From: Sphingopyxis sp. H053
GTDB taxonomy: Bacteria > Pseudomonadota > Alphaproteobacteria > Sphingomonadales > Sphingomonadaceae
DNA: 64,000 bases
Assembly: GCF_001468225.1 (NCBI RefSeq)
Contig: NZ_LNRU01000006.1
Span: forward strand, 372,001-436,000
Direction of reading: 5' to 3'
Positions 1,430-40,887 of the stretch are shown piece after piece. Position 1 is the first letter of the stretch. The number at the start of each line of letters is the position of its first letter. The notes under the pieces were generated by a model, which had not been told where the DNA came from, did not search any database, and saw only the letters and a list, made by a program, of their open reading frames with translations. A program made the position numbers and the translations under genes.

Positions 1430-1460
1430 CGCCGGCGGACAGGCGTTCGCCCCTTTATCT

Positions 1461-1532
1461 CGTCATTCCCGCGAAAGCGGGAACCCAGCTGCAACAGTTG
1501 CTCGCTGGGTTCCCGCTTTCGCGGGAATGACG
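1461..1532. repeat. Extragenic palindromic element (CGTCATTCCCGCG family)
   Basis: A 72-bp inverted repeat lies between topA and the lipase gene. The left arm begins CGTCATTCCCGCGAAAGCGG and the right arm is nearly its exact reverse complement, with a short central loop. Each arm is itself a small hairpin. Related elements occur at 2744, 20744, 35605 and 40813. It may also act as a terminator for topA, although there is no clear T-tract. Confidence 0.85.
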
Positions 1533-1608
1533 AATTTTTGGGGGACGTTACAGTCCGCGTTCCCGTCGCTGCCAAGCCGTGTTACGGTGGTCACCCGGGA
1601 GACTGTCC

Positions 1609-9461: not shown

Positions 9462-9556
9462 CCCCTCCCATTTATGGGAGGGGCTAGGGGAGGGCATGTC
9501 TGCCCCGCGCGAACTGTAACAGGCCCTCCCCCGACCCCTCCCGCAAGCGGGAGGGG
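9462..9556. repeat. Pair of inverted GC-rich repeats (CCCCTCCC family)
   Basis: The left copy (9462-9495) and the right copy (9523-9556) are reverse complements with a few mismatches: each joins a hairpin (CCCCTCCC...GGGAGGGG) to a tail ending GGGGGAGGGC or its complement. A 27-bp spacer separates them. They lie between the 3' ends of convergent genes. The same sequence style flanks the DUF559 gene at 38.9-39.4 kb. Confidence 0.75.
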
Positions 9557-20736: not shown

Positions 20737-20743
20737 CCACTTT

Positions 20744-20814
20744 CGTCATTCCCGCGAAGGCGGGAATCCAGCTAAAGCACGGATAAGCTGGATTCTCGCC
20801 TGCGCGGGAATGAC
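20744..20814. repeat. Extragenic palindromic element (CGTCATTCCCGCG family)
   Basis: A 71-bp inverted repeat. The left arm starts CGTCATTCCCGCGAAGGCGG and continues into AATCCAGCT; the right arm is AGCTGGATTCTCGCCTGCGC followed by GGGAATGACG. It lies just after the pccA stop and may end the operon transcript. Confidence 0.85.
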
Positions 20815-20825
20815 GGAGGTTTGGA

Positions 20826-32303: not shown

Positions 32304-32438
32304 GCGATCGCGCGGTACGGCCGTGAAAACGGTTCGGCGCCCTGTCACAAATCTGGTAGGATGCGGCGGCAAGGATCGGGCGATGAACCCGGCCTGCGTC
32401 GGGCGCATCCTATTAGATTTTTGACAGGGGAAAAGGTC

Positions 32439-33224: not shown

Positions 33225-35594
33225 ATGGCCCGCAAACAATATCACGGACTGCCCAGTCCTGAGCAGATCCTTCGCTTCATCGAAGAGAGCAAGGACGCGG
33301 TCGGCAAGCGCGAGATCGCGAAGCATTTCGCGCTCCACGGCAACGACAAGATCGCGCTGAAGGCGCTGCTCAAGGACATGACCGACGAGGGGCTCGTCGA
33401 TCTGGCGCCCGGACGCGCGTTCCACAAGCATGGCGGGCTGCCGCGCGTGACCGTGCTGCGCGTCGCGGCGATCGATGGCAGCAATGTCTGGGCGGTTCCC
33501 GAGCGCTGGGAAGCCGCCACGCCCGCACCGCGCCTCCGCGTGATCGAGCAGGGGCGCAAAGGCGCGCTTGGCGTCGGCGACCGCATCCTCGCGCGCACCG
33601 AGGAACGCGGCAGCGGCCATGTCGCGCACCCGATGAAGCGGCTCGAAGCCGGCGGCGAGACGGTGATCGGCGTGCTCGTCGAGGATATGGGGCCCGGCGG
33701 CAAGCCGATCCTGTGGCTGCGCCCCGCCGACAAGCGCGCGCGCTACGACTTCGCCGTCGCCGACAAGGGCGATGCGAATGTCGGCGACCTCGTCCGCGCC
33801 GAGCTGACCGGGCGCGGGCCCGCGATCAAGGCGAAGGTCGTCGAGCGCCTCGGCGATCCGTTCGCGCCGCGCGCCCTCAGCATGATCGCGATCGCGCGCC
33901 ACGAAATCCCGCATGTCTTCGGCGCCGAAACGCTCGCCGAGGCCGAGAAGGCGGCGAAGCTGCCGCTCACCCCCGAGGGCCGCGAGGATTTGCGTGACCT
34001 GCCGATCGTCGCGATCGACCCGATCGACGCGCGCGACCATGACGATGCCGTCTGGGCGACCCCCGACGACGACAGCTCCAACAAGGGCGGTTTCCGCGCG
34101 ATCGTCGCGATCGCCGATGTCAGCTATTATGTCCGCCCCGACGGCGATCTCGACCGCGAGGCGCGGCGGCGCGGCAACAGCGTCTATTTCCCCGACCAGG
34201 TCGTGCCGATGCTGCCCGAAACACTCTCGGCGGGCGTCTGCTCGCTGAAGGCGGGGCAGGACCGCGCGGCGATGGCGTGCCATCTCGTGATCGACAAGCA
34301 TGGCAAGGTGACGTCATGGCGTTTCACGCGCGCGCTCGTCCGCCTGCGCGCCAACATCGCCTATGAACATGCGCAGGCTGCCTATGATAAATCCACGTCG
34401 CCCCAGCGGAAGCTGGGGCCGCAGGAGGCTGGTCAGGACGCCAGCGATCCCAGCCTTCGCTGGGATGACGATATAATTCCGGCACTTCAGAATCTGTGGG
34501 CCTGCTGGACGCTGCTCGCCAAAGCGCGCGCCGCCCGCGCCCCGCTCGACCTCGACCTGCCCGAACGCCAGGTCATCCTCGACGAGGCGGGCGGCATCGC
34601 CGAAATCCGCGTCCGCGACCGGCTCGATTCGATGCGGCTGATCGAGGATTATATGATCGCGGCGAACGTCGCGGCGGCCAAGGCGCTCGAGGCGAAGAAA
34701 TCGCCGGTCATGTACCGAATCCACGAGCCGCCGAGCCGTGAAAAGCTCGTCAGCCTCAAGGATTATCTTGAAACCTTCGAACGGAGCTTCGCGCTCGGAC
34801 AGGTGATCACCCCCGCGGTGTTCAACCGCCTGATCGACGGCTTTTCCGAAGACGACCGGTTGCCCGAAATCATGCAGGCGATCCTGCGCAGCCAGACGCA
34901 GGCTTATTACGGCCCGGCCAACGCGGGCCATTTCGGACTCGCGCTCGGCAGCTACGCGCATTTCACCTCGCCGATCCGCCGCTACGCCGATCTGGTCGTC
35001 CACCGCGCGCTCGTCGACAGCTATAAACTCGAAGTGCCCGGCAAGCCCAAGGATCTGCCCGCCCGCACCGGGCTCGGCGAGGCCGACGCCAAGGGGCTAT
35101 CGCGCATCGGCGAGACGATCAGCGCACTCGAACGCCGCGCGATGGAGGCCGAGCGCGAAACCGTCGACCGCTATGTCGCGGCCTATCTGTCGACCAAGAA
35201 GGGCGAGATCGTCGCGGCGCGGATCACCGGGGTGCAGCCCTTCGGCTTCTTCGCCACCGTCGACGGGCTCGGCGGCGACGGGCTGGTGCCGGTTTCGACA
35301 CTCGGCAGCGAACGCTTCTTCTACGACGAAGCCGCGCGTAGCCTCGACAGCGAACACGGCCGCGTCAGTTTTACGACCGGCCAGCGACTCGATCTGCGGC
35401 TGATGGACGCAAACCCGATCAGCGGCGCCTTGCGTTTCGAACTTCCCGATGCCCCCGAAGGCGGTTTCCGCAATCGCCCGCCGCGCCGCGACGGGGTGAA
35501 AGCAAAGGGCACCGGGAAAGACGGGGCCGGCAAGCATTTGGTCGGCAAACGCGGGCGGCCCGCGAATATCAAGCACAAGGGCAAGCGACGCTAA
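33225..35594 (+). CDS. rnr: Ribonuclease R, carrying an in-frame palindromic-element insertion
   Basis: A 789-residue processive 3'-5' exoribonuclease. It has an N-terminal helix-turn-helix (KREIAKHFALHGNDKIALK), cold-shock domains, the RNB catalytic core with active-site acids in DPIDARDHDDAVWA, the LRSQTQAYYGPANAGHFGLAL and SPIRRYADLVVHR motifs, an S1 domain (GVQPFGFFATVDGLGGDGLV) and a basic C terminus. Residues about 391-415 are encoded by a 75-bp double-hairpin repeat element (34396-34470) in a loop between YEHAQAAYD and the helix ALQNLWACW. The frame is intact, so the protein is probably functional. Confidence 0.95.
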   Translation: MARKQYHGLPSPEQILRFIEESKDAVGKREIAKHFALHGNDKIALKALLKDMTDEGLVDLAPGRAFHKHGGLPRVTVLRVAAIDGSNVWAVPERWEAATPAPRLRVIEQGRKGALGVGDRILARTEERGSGHVAHPMKRLEAGGETVIGVLVEDMGPGGKPILWLRPADKRARYDFAVADKGDANVGDLVRAELTGRGPAIKAKVVERLGDPFAPRALSMIAIARHEIPHVFGAETLAEAEKAAKLPLTPEGREDLRDLPIVAIDPIDARDHDDAVWATPDDDSSNKGGFRAIVAIADVSYYVRPDGDLDREARRRGNSVYFPDQVVPMLPETLSAGVCSLKAGQDRAAMACHLVIDKHGKVTSWRFTRALVRLRANIAYEHAQAAYDKSTSPQRKLGPQEAGQDASDPSLRWDDDIIPALQNLWACWTLLAKARAARAPLDLDLPERQVILDEAGGIAEIRVRDRLDSMRLIEDYMIAANVAAAKALEAKKSPVMYRIHEPPSREKLVSLKDYLETFERSFALGQVITPAVFNRLIDGFSEDDRLPEIMQAILRSQTQAYYGPANAGHFGLALGSYAHFTSPIRRYADLVVHRALVDSYKLEVPGKPKDLPARTGLGEADAKGLSRIGETISALERRAMEAERETVDRYVAAYLSTKKGEIVAARITGVQPFGFFATVDGLGGDGLVPVSTLGSERFFYDEAARSLDSEHGRVSFTTGQRLDLRLMDANPISGALRFELPDAPEGGFRNRPPRRDGVKAKGTGKDGAGKHLVGKRGRPANIKHKGKRR
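34396..34470. repeat. Palindromic repeat element inserted in frame inside rnr
   Basis: 75 bp (25 codons). It is bounded by ACGTCG and GATGACG and contains two hairpins, GCCCCAGCGGAAGCTGGGGC and TCCCAGCCTTCGCTGGGA. It is strongly similar to the element in the E2 gene at 37910-37986 and has the same architecture as the extragenic element at 40813-40887. The translated segment ([10 protein letters not shown]...) does not look like ribonuclease R sequence. Confidence 0.85.
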
Positions 35595-35604
35595 CGCATC
35601 CCTT

Positions 35605-35673
35605 CGTCATTCCCGCGAAAGCGGGAACCCAGCAGCAACGTCAGACTGGGTTCCCGCTTTCGCGGGAATGACG
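35605..35673. repeat. Extragenic palindromic element (CGTCATTCCCGCG family)
   Basis: A 69-bp near-perfect inverted repeat. The left arm CGTCATTCCCGCGAAAGCGG continues GAACCCAG and the right arm is its exact complement. It lies between the convergent rnr gene and the XRE regulator gene, 11 bp after the rnr stop. Confidence 0.87.
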
Positions 35674-37578: not shown

Positions 37579-38913
37579 ATGCCAATCGAACTCAAAATGC
37601 CCGCTCTCTCGCCGACGATGGAGGAGGGCACCCTTGCCAAATGGCTGGTCAAGGAAGGCGATACGGTCAAATCGGGCGACCTGCTCGCCGAAATCGAGAC
37701 CGACAAGGCGACGATGGAGTTCGAAGCGATCGACGAAGGCGTCGTCAGCCAGATTCTCGTCGCCGAAGGCACCGACAATGTGAAGGTCGGCACGGTGATC
37801 GCGGTGATCGCGGGCGAGGGTGAAGATGCCGGGAGCGCGAAGGCCGCACCGGCACCGGCACCAGCTCCCGCAGCTGAACCGAAGACCGAAGCGCCTGCTC
37901 CGGCCAAAGACGTCGCCCCAGCGCAAGCTGGGGCCGCTCCCGCGAGTGCGCCGACGCCAGCGGTCCCAGCTTCCGCTGGGACGACGAAAGATGGCGAGCG
38001 CATCAAGGCCAGCCCGCTCGCGAAGCGTCTCGCGGCCGAGCGCGGAATCGACCTCTCGACCGTTACCGGCACCGGCCCCGGCGGCCGCATCGTCAAGGAC
38101 GACCTCGACGGCGCATCGGTTGGCACGCCCGCAGCACCCGCTGCGACGCCGAGCGCGGCTGCTCCCGCCGCCGCCGCTCCGGCAGCGGCTCCCGCAACCG
38201 CCGGCGCCATCCCCGATTTCGGCATCCCGCACGAGGATGAGAAGCTCAGCGGCATGCGCAAGACGATCGCGCGCCGCCTGACCGAGTCGATGCAGCAATC
38301 GCCGCACATCTACCTCACCGTCGACATCCGCCTCGACGCGCTGCTCAAGCTCCGCGGCGAACTCAACGCCAGCCTCGAAAGCCGCGGCGTCAAGCTCAGC
38401 GTCAACGACATGCTGATCAAGGCGCTCGCGGTCGCGCTCGAACGCGTCCCCGCGTGCAACGTCAGCTTCGGCGGCGACGTGATGCGCCAGTATAAGCGCG
38501 CCGACATCTCGGTCGCGGTCAGCATTCCGGGCGGCCTGATCACCCCGATCATCACCGACGCCGGCGGCAAGTCGATGTCGAAAATCTCGACCGAAATGTC
38601 CGAGCTCGCGGCGAAGGCGAAGGAAGGCAAGCTCCAGCCCAACGAATATCAGGGCGGCACCGCCTCGATCTCGAACATGGGCATGATGGGGATCAAGCAG
38701 TTCACCGCGGTGATCAACCCGCCGCAGGGCATGATCATGGCGATCGGCGCGGGCGAGAAGCGGCCCTACATCGTCGACGACGCGCTCGCGATCGCCACCG
38801 TCATGTCGGCGACCGGCAGCTTCGACCACCGCGCGATCGACGGCGCCGACGGCGCGCTGTTGATGAAGACCTTCAAGGAACTGGTGGAGAACCCGCTGGG
38901 GCTGGTGGCGTGA
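37579..38913 (+). CDS. pdhC: Pyruvate dehydrogenase complex E2 (dihydrolipoamide acetyltransferase), with in-frame repeat element in the linker
   Basis: A 444-residue E2 subunit. The lipoyl domain (residues 1-80) has the lipoylated Lys in [12 protein letters not shown], and the peripheral subunit-binding domain is [17 protein letters not shown]...GGRIVKDDL. The C-terminal catalytic domain contains [14 protein letters not shown]. The [18 protein letters not shown] start indicates pyruvate rather than 2-oxoglutarate specificity. In the Ala/Pro linker, residues about 111-136 (APAQAGAAP...VPASAGTT) come from a palindromic repeat. E1 genes are not in the window; the E3 gene follows after a DUF559 gene. 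Confidence 0.94.
37910..37986. repeat. Palindromic repeat element inside the E2 linker coding sequence
   Basis: About 77 bp beginning ACGTCGCCCCAGCGCAAGCT and ending CAGCTTCCGCTGGGACGACG. It contains the hairpins GCCCCAGCGCAAGCTGGGGC and TCCCAGCTTCCGCTGGGA, plus the central GACGCCAGCG, all shared with the rnr element at 34396-34470. It codes in frame for Ala/Pro-rich sequence within an already flexible linker. Confidence 0.85.
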
Positions 38914-38979
38914 TCAACCCCTCTCCCTTCAAGGGAGAGGGAGGGGCCCGCGCGCGCAAGCGCGTGGGAGGGTGAGGGT
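38913..38979. repeat. Left inverted repeat of the DUF559 unit
   Basis: 67 bp starting at the last base of the E2 stop codon and ending one base before the DUF559 start codon. It contains the hairpin CCCCTCTCCCTTCAAGGGAGAGG, given here as two arms (CCCCTCTCCCTT and AAGGGAGAGG), a GC-rich hairpin, and the tail GGGAGGGTGAGGG, which doubles as the Shine-Dalgarno sequence. It is the reverse complement, with a few changes, of 39323-39387. Confidence 0.8.
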
Positions 38980-39408
38980 ATGACGGCAGGCTATTCACAG
39001 CTGACGCTGGAACGCGCCAAGGCGCTGCGCCGTTCACTGACCGAACAGGAACGGAAATTATGGGGCGCACTTCGCGATCGGCGGCTAGGCGGTTTCAAAT
39101 TTCGCAAACAACAGCCTATCGGCCCCTTCATCGCCGATTTCGTCTGTCAGGAGCAACGCCTGATCGTTGAGGTTGACGGATCGCAACACGCCTCCTCCGA
39201 AACCGACGTCCAGCGCGACGGCTATTTGAAGGGCAAGGGCTATCGCGTTCTGCGAGTCTGGAACAATGATGTGACTGGAAATTTGTCGGGAGTTTTGACG
39301 GCGGTTCTTGCCGCGCTTTCGGCCCCTCACCCTCCCATTGCTGCGCAATGGGCCCCTCCCTCTCCCTTGAAGGGAGAGGGGATTGATAATGGAGCAGATT
39401 TTGGCTGA
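38980..39408 (+). CDS. DUF559 (Vsr/endonuclease-like) protein
   Basis: A 142-residue protein of the DUF559 family, related to very-short-patch-repair nucleases (PD-(D/E)xK fold). Motifs seen are ERAKALRRSLTEQERKLW, the core GFKFRKQQPIGPFIADFVC and IVEVDGSQH, and KGYRVLRVWNNDV. Residues from about 115 onward (PHPPIAAQWAPPSPLKGEG) are translated from the right repeat and are not part of the domain. The ATG directly follows the left repeat. The gene separates the E2 and E3 genes and overlaps the E3 start by about 20 bp. Cellular role unknown. Confidence 0.85.
   Translation: MTAGYSQLTLERAKALRRSLTEQERKLWGALRDRRLGGFKFRKQQPIGPFIADFVCQEQRLIVEVDGSQHASSETDVQRDGYLKGKGYRVLRVWNNDVTGNLSGVLTAVLAALSAPHPPIAAQWAPPSPLKGEGIDNGADFG
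39323..39387. repeat. Right inverted repeat of the DUF559 unit
   Basis: 65 bp. It starts CCCCTCACCCTCCCA, has a central hairpin CATTGCTGCGCAATG, then CCCCTCCCTCTCCC, a hairpin partner AAGGGAGAGGGG, and ends ATTGAT. It matches the reverse complement of the left repeat except for the central loop. It overlaps the DUF559 3' coding end and supplies GGGAGAGGGG upstream of the E3 start. Confidence 0.8.
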
Positions 39409-40798
39409 TACCAACTACGACCTCATCGTCCTCGGCTCGGGGCCCGGCGGCTATGTCGCGGCGATCCGCGCGGCTCAATTGGGCCTGAAGACCGCGATCG
39501 TCGAGCGCGAGAATCTTGGTGGTATCTGCCTCAACTGGGGCTGCATTCCGACCAAGGCGCTGCTGCGCTCGGCAGAAATCTATCATTATATGCAGCATGC
39601 CGGCGACTATGGCCTCGTCGCCGCGCAGATCAGCGCCGACATCGATGCGGTCGTGAAGCGCAGCCGCGGGGTCGCGAAGCAGCTGAGCCAGGGCGTCGCC
39701 TTCCTGATGAAGAAGCACAAGATCACCGTCCATATGGGCGAGGGCAAGCTGACCGCGCCGGGCAAGCTCGAGGTAAAGGGCGAGAAGGGCACCGAAACCC
39801 TCACCGCGAAGAATATCATCGTCGCAACCGGCGCCCGCGCCCGCGACCTGCCGTTCGCGCCCGCCGACGGCAAGCGCATCTGGACCTATCGCCACGCGCT
39901 CGTCCCGCCCGAAATGCCCAAGAAATTGCTCGTCATCGGATCGGGTGCGATCGGAATCGAATTTGCGAGCTTCTACAGCGACATGGGCGTCGATGTGACC
40001 GTCGTCGAAATGCTCGACCGCCTCGTTCCCGTCGAGGACGCGGATGTCTCGGCCTTCCTCGAAAAATCGCTCAAGAAACAGGGCATGACGATCTTCACGG
40101 GCGCCGGAGTCGAGGAACTGAAGGCCACCGCGACCGGCGTCACCGCAAAGATCAAGACGAAGGACGGCAAGACCGAAAGCGCCGAATTCAGCCACGCGAT
40201 CGTCGCGATCGGCATCGTGCCGAACACCGAAAATATCGGGCTCGAAGCGCTCGGGGTGAAGACGACCAAGGGCCATATCGACACCGACGCGATGTGCCGC
40301 ACCAACGTCCCCGGCATCTGGGCGATCGGCGACGTCACCGCGCCGCCGTGGCTCGCGCACAAGGCGATGCACGAATCGGTGATTTCGGTCGAGGCGATCG
40401 CGGGCAACCATCCGCACGCGATGGACGTGCGCAACATCCCCGGCTGCACCTATTGCCGCCCGCAGATCGCGAGCGTCGGCCTGACCGAAGCGAAAGCCAA
40501 GGAACTCGGTTACGAGGTCAAGGCCGGCACCTTCCCGTTCATCGGCAATGGCAAGGCGATCGCGCTCGGCGAGTCCGAGGGCTTCACCAAGACCGTGTTC
40601 GACGCGAAGACCGGCGAATTGCTCGGCGCGCATATGATCGGCGCCGAGGTCACCGAGCTGATCCAGGGCTATACGATCGGCAAGACCGCCGAGCTGGTCG
40701 AGGATGATTTCATCGGCACCGTCTTCCCGCATCCGACGCTCAGCGAAACGATGCACGAGGGCGTGCTCGCGGCCTTCGGACGGCCGCTGCATATTTGA
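39389..40798 (+). CDS. lpd: Dihydrolipoamide dehydrogenase (E3)
   Basis: A 469-residue FAD disulfide reductase that reoxidises the lipoyl groups of E2. The FAD fold is VLGSGPGGYVAAI, the redox disulfide is in GGICLNWGCIPTK, the NAD fold is IGSGAIGIEFASFY, the FAD segment is WAIGDVTAPP, and the catalytic His/Glu pair is near FPHPTLSE. The ATG at 39389 lies just after the right repeat. A TTG at 39401, with GGAG six bases upstream, gives MADTNYDLIVLG, the usual E3 N terminus, and may be the original start. Confidence 0.94.
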   Translation: MEQILADTNYDLIVLGSGPGGYVAAIRAAQLGLKTAIVERENLGGICLNWGCIPTKALLRSAEIYHYMQHAGDYGLVAAQISADIDAVVKRSRGVAKQLSQGVAFLMKKHKITVHMGEGKLTAPGKLEVKGEKGTETLTAKNIIVATGARARDLPFAPADGKRIWTYRHALVPPEMPKKLLVIGSGAIGIEFASFYSDMGVDVTVVEMLDRLVPVEDADVSAFLEKSLKKQGMTIFTGAGVEELKATATGVTAKIKTKDGKTESAEFSHAIVAIGIVPNTENIGLEALGVKTTKGHIDTDAMCRTNVPGIWAIGDVTAPPWLAHKAMHESVISVEAIAGNHPHAMDVRNIPGCTYCRPQIASVGLTEAKAKELGYEVKAGTFPFIGNGKAIALGESEGFTKTVFDAKTGELLGAHMIGAEVTELIQGYTIGKTAELVEDDFIGTVFPHPTLSETMHEGVLAAFGRPLHI

Positions 40799-40812: not shown

Positions 40813-40887
40813 CGTCACCCCCGCGAAGGCGGGGGTCCCGCTTTGCCAGCACGAGGAAGCGGGATTCCCGCCTTCGCGGGAATGACG
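40813..40887. repeat. Extragenic palindromic element with two hairpins
   Basis: 75 bp. It is bounded by CGTCA and TGACG, with hairpins CCCCCGCGAAGGCGGGGG and TTCCCGCCTTCGCGGGAA separated by about 30 bp. Its plan (boundary, hairpin, spacer, hairpin, boundary) and length match the two in-gene elements in rnr and the E2 gene. Confidence 0.82.

Follow-up and report, generated by a model that had tools for sequence, protein, structure and literature searches.

Among palindromic elements that insert into bacterial genes, the closest described relatives of the one discussed here are the CGTC REPs. This superfamily was defined by Di Nocera, De Gregorio and Rocco (2013; PMC3733652), in whose account it is present in all alphaproteobacterial orders; its members are mostly extragenic, with some in ORFs, including those of tRNA synthetases in S. 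alaskensis, and the palindromic elements RPE-4 and RPE-6 of Rickettsia are equated with CGTC families. In the parts of that account drawn on here, no dedicated enzyme and no RAYT flanked by CGTC units is reported, and recB of Xanthomonas is the only example given in which different REPs occupy nearly one position in a gene. Rickettsia palindromic elements (RPEs) are ~150 bp long according to the relevant part of a review. Portions of three further papers were also drawn on (PMC12306157, PMC10969869, PMC1564403).

The element considered here lies inside the RNase R gene (rnr) of Sphingopyxis sp. H053, in a 64,000-nt stretch of its genome (“the window”), to which all coordinates in Table 1 refer.

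The RNase R gene and its element

The rnr product has Pfam RNB, CSD2, and S1 matches that each exceed their own cut-offs, while its top NCBIfam match, the RNase R model TIGR02063, at 546.8 bits is under the curated cut-off of 597.85. An initial annotation of the window had proposed a 75-bp double hairpin in this gene, and that is what is found: two hairpins with 8-bp stems and 4-nt loops, between CGTC...GACG ends, with both 24-base units in the open rnr frame. CGTC REPs are characterized by A-T pairs at the first and second positions of the stem and a tail close to CCA; here the right arm begins with A-T and the left with G-C, and the tails differ from CCA. Since the frame is open and the RNB domain extends to either side of the insert, the gene looks functional, to judge by its sequence. 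In a structure prediction from 37 sequences (mean pLDDT 61), insert residues 394–412 have pLDDT values below 50 and are flanked by helices at 380–391 and 417–436; at this low confidence, the insert is predicted to lie between two helices. It is presumably harmless to RNase R.

Table 1. Positions of the rnr element and related features in the window.
Feature	Position	Strand	Basis
rnr, RNase R, 789 aa	33225..35594	+	open frame; Pfam RNB, CSD2, S1; NCBIfam RNase_R top match, under cut-off
CGTC-REP head-to-head dimer, subtype A (stem CCCAGC/GCTGGG), 25 codons, aa 391–415	34396..34470		
Left REP unit, 8-bp stem, 4-nt loop	34397..34420	+	exact pattern match
Right REP unit, 8-bp stem, 4-nt loop	34446..34469	-	exact pattern match
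Allele patch common to carrier species (insert and neighboring codons), borders approximate	34387..34495	+	codon view, sliding identity
Second subtype-A REP dimer, 76 bp, in frame in E2 Ala/Pro linker (E2 37579–38913), other reading frame	37911..37986		
Extragenic CGTC-REP dimer, subtype C, directly past rnr	35605..35673		
Extragenic CGTC-REP dimer, subtype C, past E3 gene	40813..40887		
Extragenic CGTC-REP dimer; other palindromes in same gap of some relatives	20743..20817		
Extragenic CGTC-REP dimer, subtype C	1459..1534		
CCCTC-type palindrome ahead of DUF559 gene	38918..38941		
DUF559 (Vsr-like) gene between CCCTC palindromes, start codon uncertain	38980..39408	+	PF04480, E 1.2e-37
CCCTC-type palindrome at DUF559 gene end	39358..39381		

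The insert among Sphingopyxis relatives

A search for RNase R gave a match in all 60 genomes of the genus; 30 loci were taken, and 29 sequences, including that of H053, were aligned. (Genome G003 is absent from the alignment; its locus, taken as L230, is without the insert.) Four of the 29 carry the insert and the other 25 have ~10 similar codons in its place, which upholds the original reading of the element as an insertion. That it adds 25 codons without breaking the frame is half right: the frame is kept, but the net change between carriers and non-carriers is +51 nt, or +17 codons, rather than +75 nt. The carriers are without ~8 host codons found in the non-carriers, so the insertion was not clean, and the 25-codon gap that had been expected in relatives is one of 17 codons in the alignment.

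The codons immediately beside the insert are common to the four carriers. In comparison with its nearest relative, G038, the H053 gene is 92–99% identical per comparison window but 78% identical in the insert patch; against the three other carriers, the sliding identity of this patch is 84–92%. Because patch identity departs from that of the rest of rnr, a short insert-bearing tract has either passed from one species to another or persisted in a small number of them.

The repeat family in the H053 genome

The 24-base subtype-A half-element has 43 exact matches in the 5.13-Mb genome and its reversed pattern has none; with up to three mismatches the counts are 210 and 6. On these counts the rnr element is above chance, and the further copies for which the initial annotation had suggested searching do exist. 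Subtype C (stem CCCGCG) outnumbers subtype A in this genome, with 271 matches at up to two mismatches and one for the reversed pattern. The element at 40813 is of this sister subtype: it shares the layout of the rnr element, as had been proposed, with a different stem (CCCGCG rather than CCCAGC). The element in the E2 gene, also proposed as a match, is of the same subtype A.

Element loci, 99 in all, were assembled from subtype-A places at up to one mismatch, exact subtype-C places among the first 100 matches listed, and the window; in these sampled parts of the genome 81 of the 99 are head-to-head dimers. Most copies are intergenic, and the few in-gene copies here are in frame, in connectors or linkers. 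Tabulating them, a further suggestion of the initial annotation, gives at least five genes with domain support among the 99 loci: rnr, E2, pdhB, glyS, and ileS. Fifty-three ORFs span an element, of which 33 reach a coding score of 0.1; 27 of these were taken to Pfam, and the other six cover the same elements in antisense or as duplicates. The in-gene calls rest on open frames and Pfam matches, a codon-score classifier having been dropped after it misplaced rnr, probably because antisense frames score well in a GC-rich genome. Three candidate hosts were rejected as start-site artefacts, the element preceding the first domain: serA, an M20 peptidase, and a PAP2 ORF at 40704.

The dimers in rnr, E2, glyS, and ileS are 75, 76, 76, and 79 bp long and all are in frame; pdhB has one clear unit. 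Length divisible by three, which had been put forward as a sign of selection, can therefore be set aside as a selected trait: since the 76-, 76-, and 79-bp elements also stay in frame, the frame is kept through the junctions and not by element length.

The pdhB gene (E1 beta with a lipoyl domain; L143, 616–2166) has its REP in a linker. Its lipoyl part is 90% like the E2 lipoyl domain in H053 and in G011, and ~72–82% in most other listed relatives; to judge by these identities, gene conversion between the two lipoyl domains is possible. The window also contains a CCCTCCC-type inverted repeat pair (9462–9556), which resembles the inserts of some RNase R loops, and a 26-bp inverted repeat with a 38-nt gap (32340–32429), which adjoins an ORF at 32361 and is not REP-like.

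Recurrent insertion sites

The variable loop in which the initial annotation placed the element is a hypervariable connector of RNase R. A survey of 109 Sphingomonadales sequences yielded 97 distinct loops: 65 of no more than 19 aa, two of 23 aa, and 30 of more than 25 aa. The long loops have a mean fold z of -4.5, against +0.4 for the 65 short ones (single-letter shuffles), and a perfect stem of at least 7 bp is found in 20 of the 30 long loops and in none of the short. Matches to repeats outside rnr (BLASTN, E ≤0.01) were found for 25 of the 30 long loops, in a comparison with DNA enriched for element loci; for L246 the match is a single hit. By sequence, these 25 can be sorted into five palindrome types: CGTC subtypes in 11 loops, a CCCTCCC type in eight, and, in two loops each, a CCTCCCCGGAACGGGGAGG type, a TTCGACAAGCTC type, and a related one. 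The other five of the 30 long loops are not palindromic repeats. Long loops with an ASSPCS or SSSPCS motif occur on separate branches (L268, L283, L288, L295), and in the first three of these they are non-palindromic.

On a tree of RNase R proteins without the loop, palindrome presence takes 18 changes at the fewest and the CGTC state nine; for the label “no long loop,” 13 changes are forced by well-supported branches alone.

Similar distributions were seen by eye at other sites. Among 30 aligned glyS sequences, 13 have CGTC-like elements (two of them partial), three have CCCTC elements, and 14 are without; ileS has CGTC subtypes in ~15 of 30, and the E2 linker has an element in 12 of 30. In the intergenic gap at 20743, seven genomes (H053 and the syntenic stretches L062, L066, L069, L074, L077, and L079) have a subtype-C REP, a ATTGCGAG type, or a TTCGACAAGCTC type, depending on the species. 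Palindromes of unrelated families have docked repeatedly in the RNase R loop, and glyS and ileS behave alike. No paper reporting the rnr palindrome site was found in the open-access literature, supplements apart.

Nuclease genes between palindromes

In several genomes, subtype-A units are spaced ~330–345 bp apart, and in H053 the interval encodes a 96-aa GIY-YIG nuclease (PF01541, E 9.5e-14). Besides UvrC, 25 Sphingopyxis genomes gave 87 GIY-YIG matches, of which 86 were taken and 77 tested, the other nine loci being truncated or without a frame. Near-identical palindromes, mostly CGTC-tagged, are present on both sides of 43 of these 77 single-domain genes, compared to 8 of 1121 control ORFs (open frames rather than curated genes, drawn from the window and from syntenic regions in six relatives, with some homology among them). 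The proportion depends on how gene starts are called: under other rules it is 36 of 66, against 3 of 391 controls, and 29 of 85 at score 20; under yet another, typed hairpins are found on both sides of 28 of 66, with the same subtype on both sides in all 28. The strictest gene finder recovered 7 of 66 genes, 5 of them typed on both sides. Under the first rules 34 of the 77 genes are below the bracketing score, and in a subfamily of the FWTYILLCADG type (eight genes) none is bracketed.

Palindrome type follows nuclease descent. To place twelve types, named after the sequences had been seen, on a nuclease tree of 49 genes takes 13 changes, where the minimum is 11 and 500 shuffles gave a mean of 36.5 and a lowest value of 31; L408 has a palindrome type different from that of its nuclease clade. 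In a loose letter search, 35 of the 49 genes have the CGTC tag on one or both sides, and 30 on both. The tag is not universal: TGTC or a different end is carried by the majority of G1 types and by part of the T and C types. The proteins themselves have Tyr, Tyr (Tyr-Gly), Arg, and Glu columns conserved in 75–77 of 77, which we take to be the catalytic residues of GIY-YIG nucleases.

The subtype-A GIY-YIG nuclease of H053 is encoded at C1:492876–493097 of the genome. The dimer past its gene is 75 bp long, with 18 differences from the rnr insert, five of them outside the central 17 nt; in G018, both dimers around the cognate gene are also 75 bp. Subtype-A units number 13–50 in the five genomes with a subtype-A nuclease and a median of one in the 20 without (p = 0.002), a comparison that ignores kinship and is partly circular, because the nuclease gene is typed by its flanking units. 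In G002, G010, and G011 there are 14–28 subtype-A units, with the subtype-A nuclease gene absent from the set.

Relatives of the nuclease are also found in 33 records of a plasmid collection, of which 16, from other genera, were examined. At a shared-repeat score of at least 22, a repeat is shared across the gene in 12 of them (a count made without control ORFs): Novosphingobium, two Sphingobium, Sinorhizobium meliloti, two Shinella, Rhizobium, Neorhizobium, Azospirillum, Aeromonas, Neisseria, and Planktothrix, the repeat in the last having no perfect stem of 7 bp. Bracketing is absent in the records from Rhizobium tumorigenes, Sinorhizobium K101, Photobacterium, and Spirosoma.

In five species (L313, L316, L320, L325, L348), a GIY-YIG gene with G-subtype palindromes is within ~1.3 kb of the ileS match; in H053 a CGTC element is inside ileS itself.

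A parallel arrangement involves DUF559 genes. All four in the H053 genome, including the one in the window, are bracketed by CCCTC palindromes. Genus-wide, 21 of 25 genomes have DUF559 matches, 69 in all, and a CCCTC palindrome is shared across the gene at a score of at least 20 in 22 of 32 loci tested; this count was made without control ORFs and omits L384, a short locus with misplaced borders whose palindrome is not CCCTC. In L394, a flank of the DUF559 gene is similar to the palindrome type that L239 and L252 have in rnr. The window's DUF559 cassette (38918–39381) sits between E2 and E3. The same palindrome is present there in G027, another CCCTC palindrome pair in G038 and G011 (with the DUF559 match confirmed in G011), and other sequence in G006 and G057. 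In the open-access literature, supplements apart, no paper was found that ties GIY-YIG or DUF559 genes to such palindromes.

Possible origin of the rnr insert

The rnr insert is probably a non-autonomous palindrome copy that was moved by a small GIY-YIG nuclease and retained in a protein connector able to tolerate it; this reading is supported by the recurrence and by the match of nuclease and palindrome types. The 75-bp unit, a CGTC-tagged REP dimer, would be a mobile palindrome, and in its full form the same palindrome would flank, on either side, a small gene for a single-domain GIY-YIG nuclease. This nuclease would recognize palindromes of its own subtype and nick or cleave DNA, with the result that the dimer is copied to new places. 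The insertion and its repeat nature, the recurrence at the site, the patchy allele tract, and the bracketing and co-segregation of nucleases and palindromes are observed; movement of the palindrome by the nuclease, and the manner of cutting, are inferred. Against this reading stand the nuclease subfamilies without bracketing, the three genomes with 14–28 subtype-A units and no cognate gene in the set, the partial circularity of the copy-number comparison, the CGTC tag's lack of universality, the discordant palindrome of L408, and the loss of host codons at the insertion. The RNase R connector between two helices would be a tolerated site, at which palindromes of several families have been taken up over evolution, and once inserted, an rnr allele might pass between species in short recombination tracts.

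A broader proposal, which we favor with more reserve, is that GIY-YIG nucleases are dedicated mobilizers of CGTC REPs and their near kin (dRS3-like elements of Neisseria and, by extension, putatively, RPE-4 and RPE-6) and DUF559 nucleases of CCCTC palindromes. Each clade would have its own subtype, and a few connectors, RNase R foremost, would be long-term docking sites where palindromes turn coding. The defining paper left the mode of CGTC REP movement open, and with a type-matched nuclease partner that question can be put to a direct test. In the RNase R loop, for its part, a natural series of unrelated palindromes has entered a single protein in frame, so that it can be asked when mobile DNA turns into protein and whether hairpins in the mRNA matter.

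Of the alternatives, the one that survives best, although we think it unlikely, is that nuclease and REPs are associated without mobilization: the nuclease might be a passenger or live off REPs, which could be its homes or its landing pads, or it might trim their hairpins, with the REPs spreading otherwise. All of the measurements concern association only, and the GIY-YIG domain was first recognized in homing nucleases, according to part of the cited literature. The matching of clade and type is expected of a specific partner, but a specific landing pad would predict the same.

A second alternative is at the RNA level. RNase R degrades structured RNA, REP-containing RNA included, as described from work in E. 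coli; the rnr message could thus be a substrate of its own product, and a hairpin in it selected for autoregulation. Any strong hairpin would then serve, which would account for the return of unrelated palindromes to one spot in rnr. In five Sphingopyxis carriers, the stems also vary less than the spacer (0.069 vs. 0.148 differences per nt), and at two of the three varying stem pairs both sides have changed in a way that keeps pairing, in one species. However, a stem pair is broken in L251, and with three varying pairs the covariation is thin; most loops (65 of 97) are short and none of these has a 7-bp hairpin; and glyS and ileS, which do not encode ribonucleases, show the same recurrence, which speaks against a role specific to rnr. 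We regard autoregulation as distinctly improbable.

It is very unlikely, thirdly, that there was one ancient rnr insertion in a sphingomonad ancestor, followed by many losses and by changes of type through conversion with other repeats. The subtype-A inserts of Sphingomonas and Sphingopyxis do share a frame and nearly the same position. Against this, the CCCTC and CGTC families are unrelated, making interconversion unlikely; the short Sphingopyxis loops have one alternative sequence in common; and there are the 18 changes on the tree, though three changes can be one gain and two losses. Lastly, movement of CGTC REPs in trans by a RAYT (Y1 tyrosine transposase), as proposed for the GTAG REPs whose layout theirs resembles in the part of PMC3733652 used here, is hardly credible: a Y1_Tnp profile search had no match in the H053 genome and was positive in five of 14 control genomes, and that part of the paper describes no RAYT with flanking CGTC units.

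Comparison with known systems

The likeness to Rickettsia palindromic elements drawn in the initial annotation is well founded, in that RPE-4 and RPE-6 are themselves placed in CGTC families in the portion of PMC3733652 consulted. The rnr element is likewise palindromic and in frame inside a gene that, from its sequence, appears functional; it differs in its host, Sphingopyxis rather than Rickettsia, and in its length, 75 bp as against the ~150 bp given for RPEs in part of a review.

In having palindromes on either side of a single enzyme gene, together with many non-autonomous copies, the system resembles the REP/RAYT systems (REPtrons, REPINs), but the gene is that of a GIY-YIG or DUF559 nuclease and not of a Y1 transposase. 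The partner protein is like the GIY-YIG homing endonucleases in its domain and its conserved Tyr, Tyr, Arg, and Glu; unlike them, it is a stand-alone 96-aa protein between palindromes, with dispersed palindrome copies and no intron seen.

The closest resemblance is to the CGTC REP superfamily itself: the rnr dimer has the unpaired CGTC tag at both ends, the 8-bp stem, the 4-nt loop, and the head-to-head arrangement, and both the element and its genome conform to the superfamily's stems of 8–9 bp, loops of 4–5 nt, and predominance of dimers. Membership stands, because the lack of a dedicated transposase was the state of knowledge in 2013 and not a structural criterion. The superfamily and its in-gene habit have been known since then, and the rnr insertion fits that habit; what differs from the 2013 account is the GIY-YIG partner, flanked in 43 of 77 genes, and the recurrent site in rnr.
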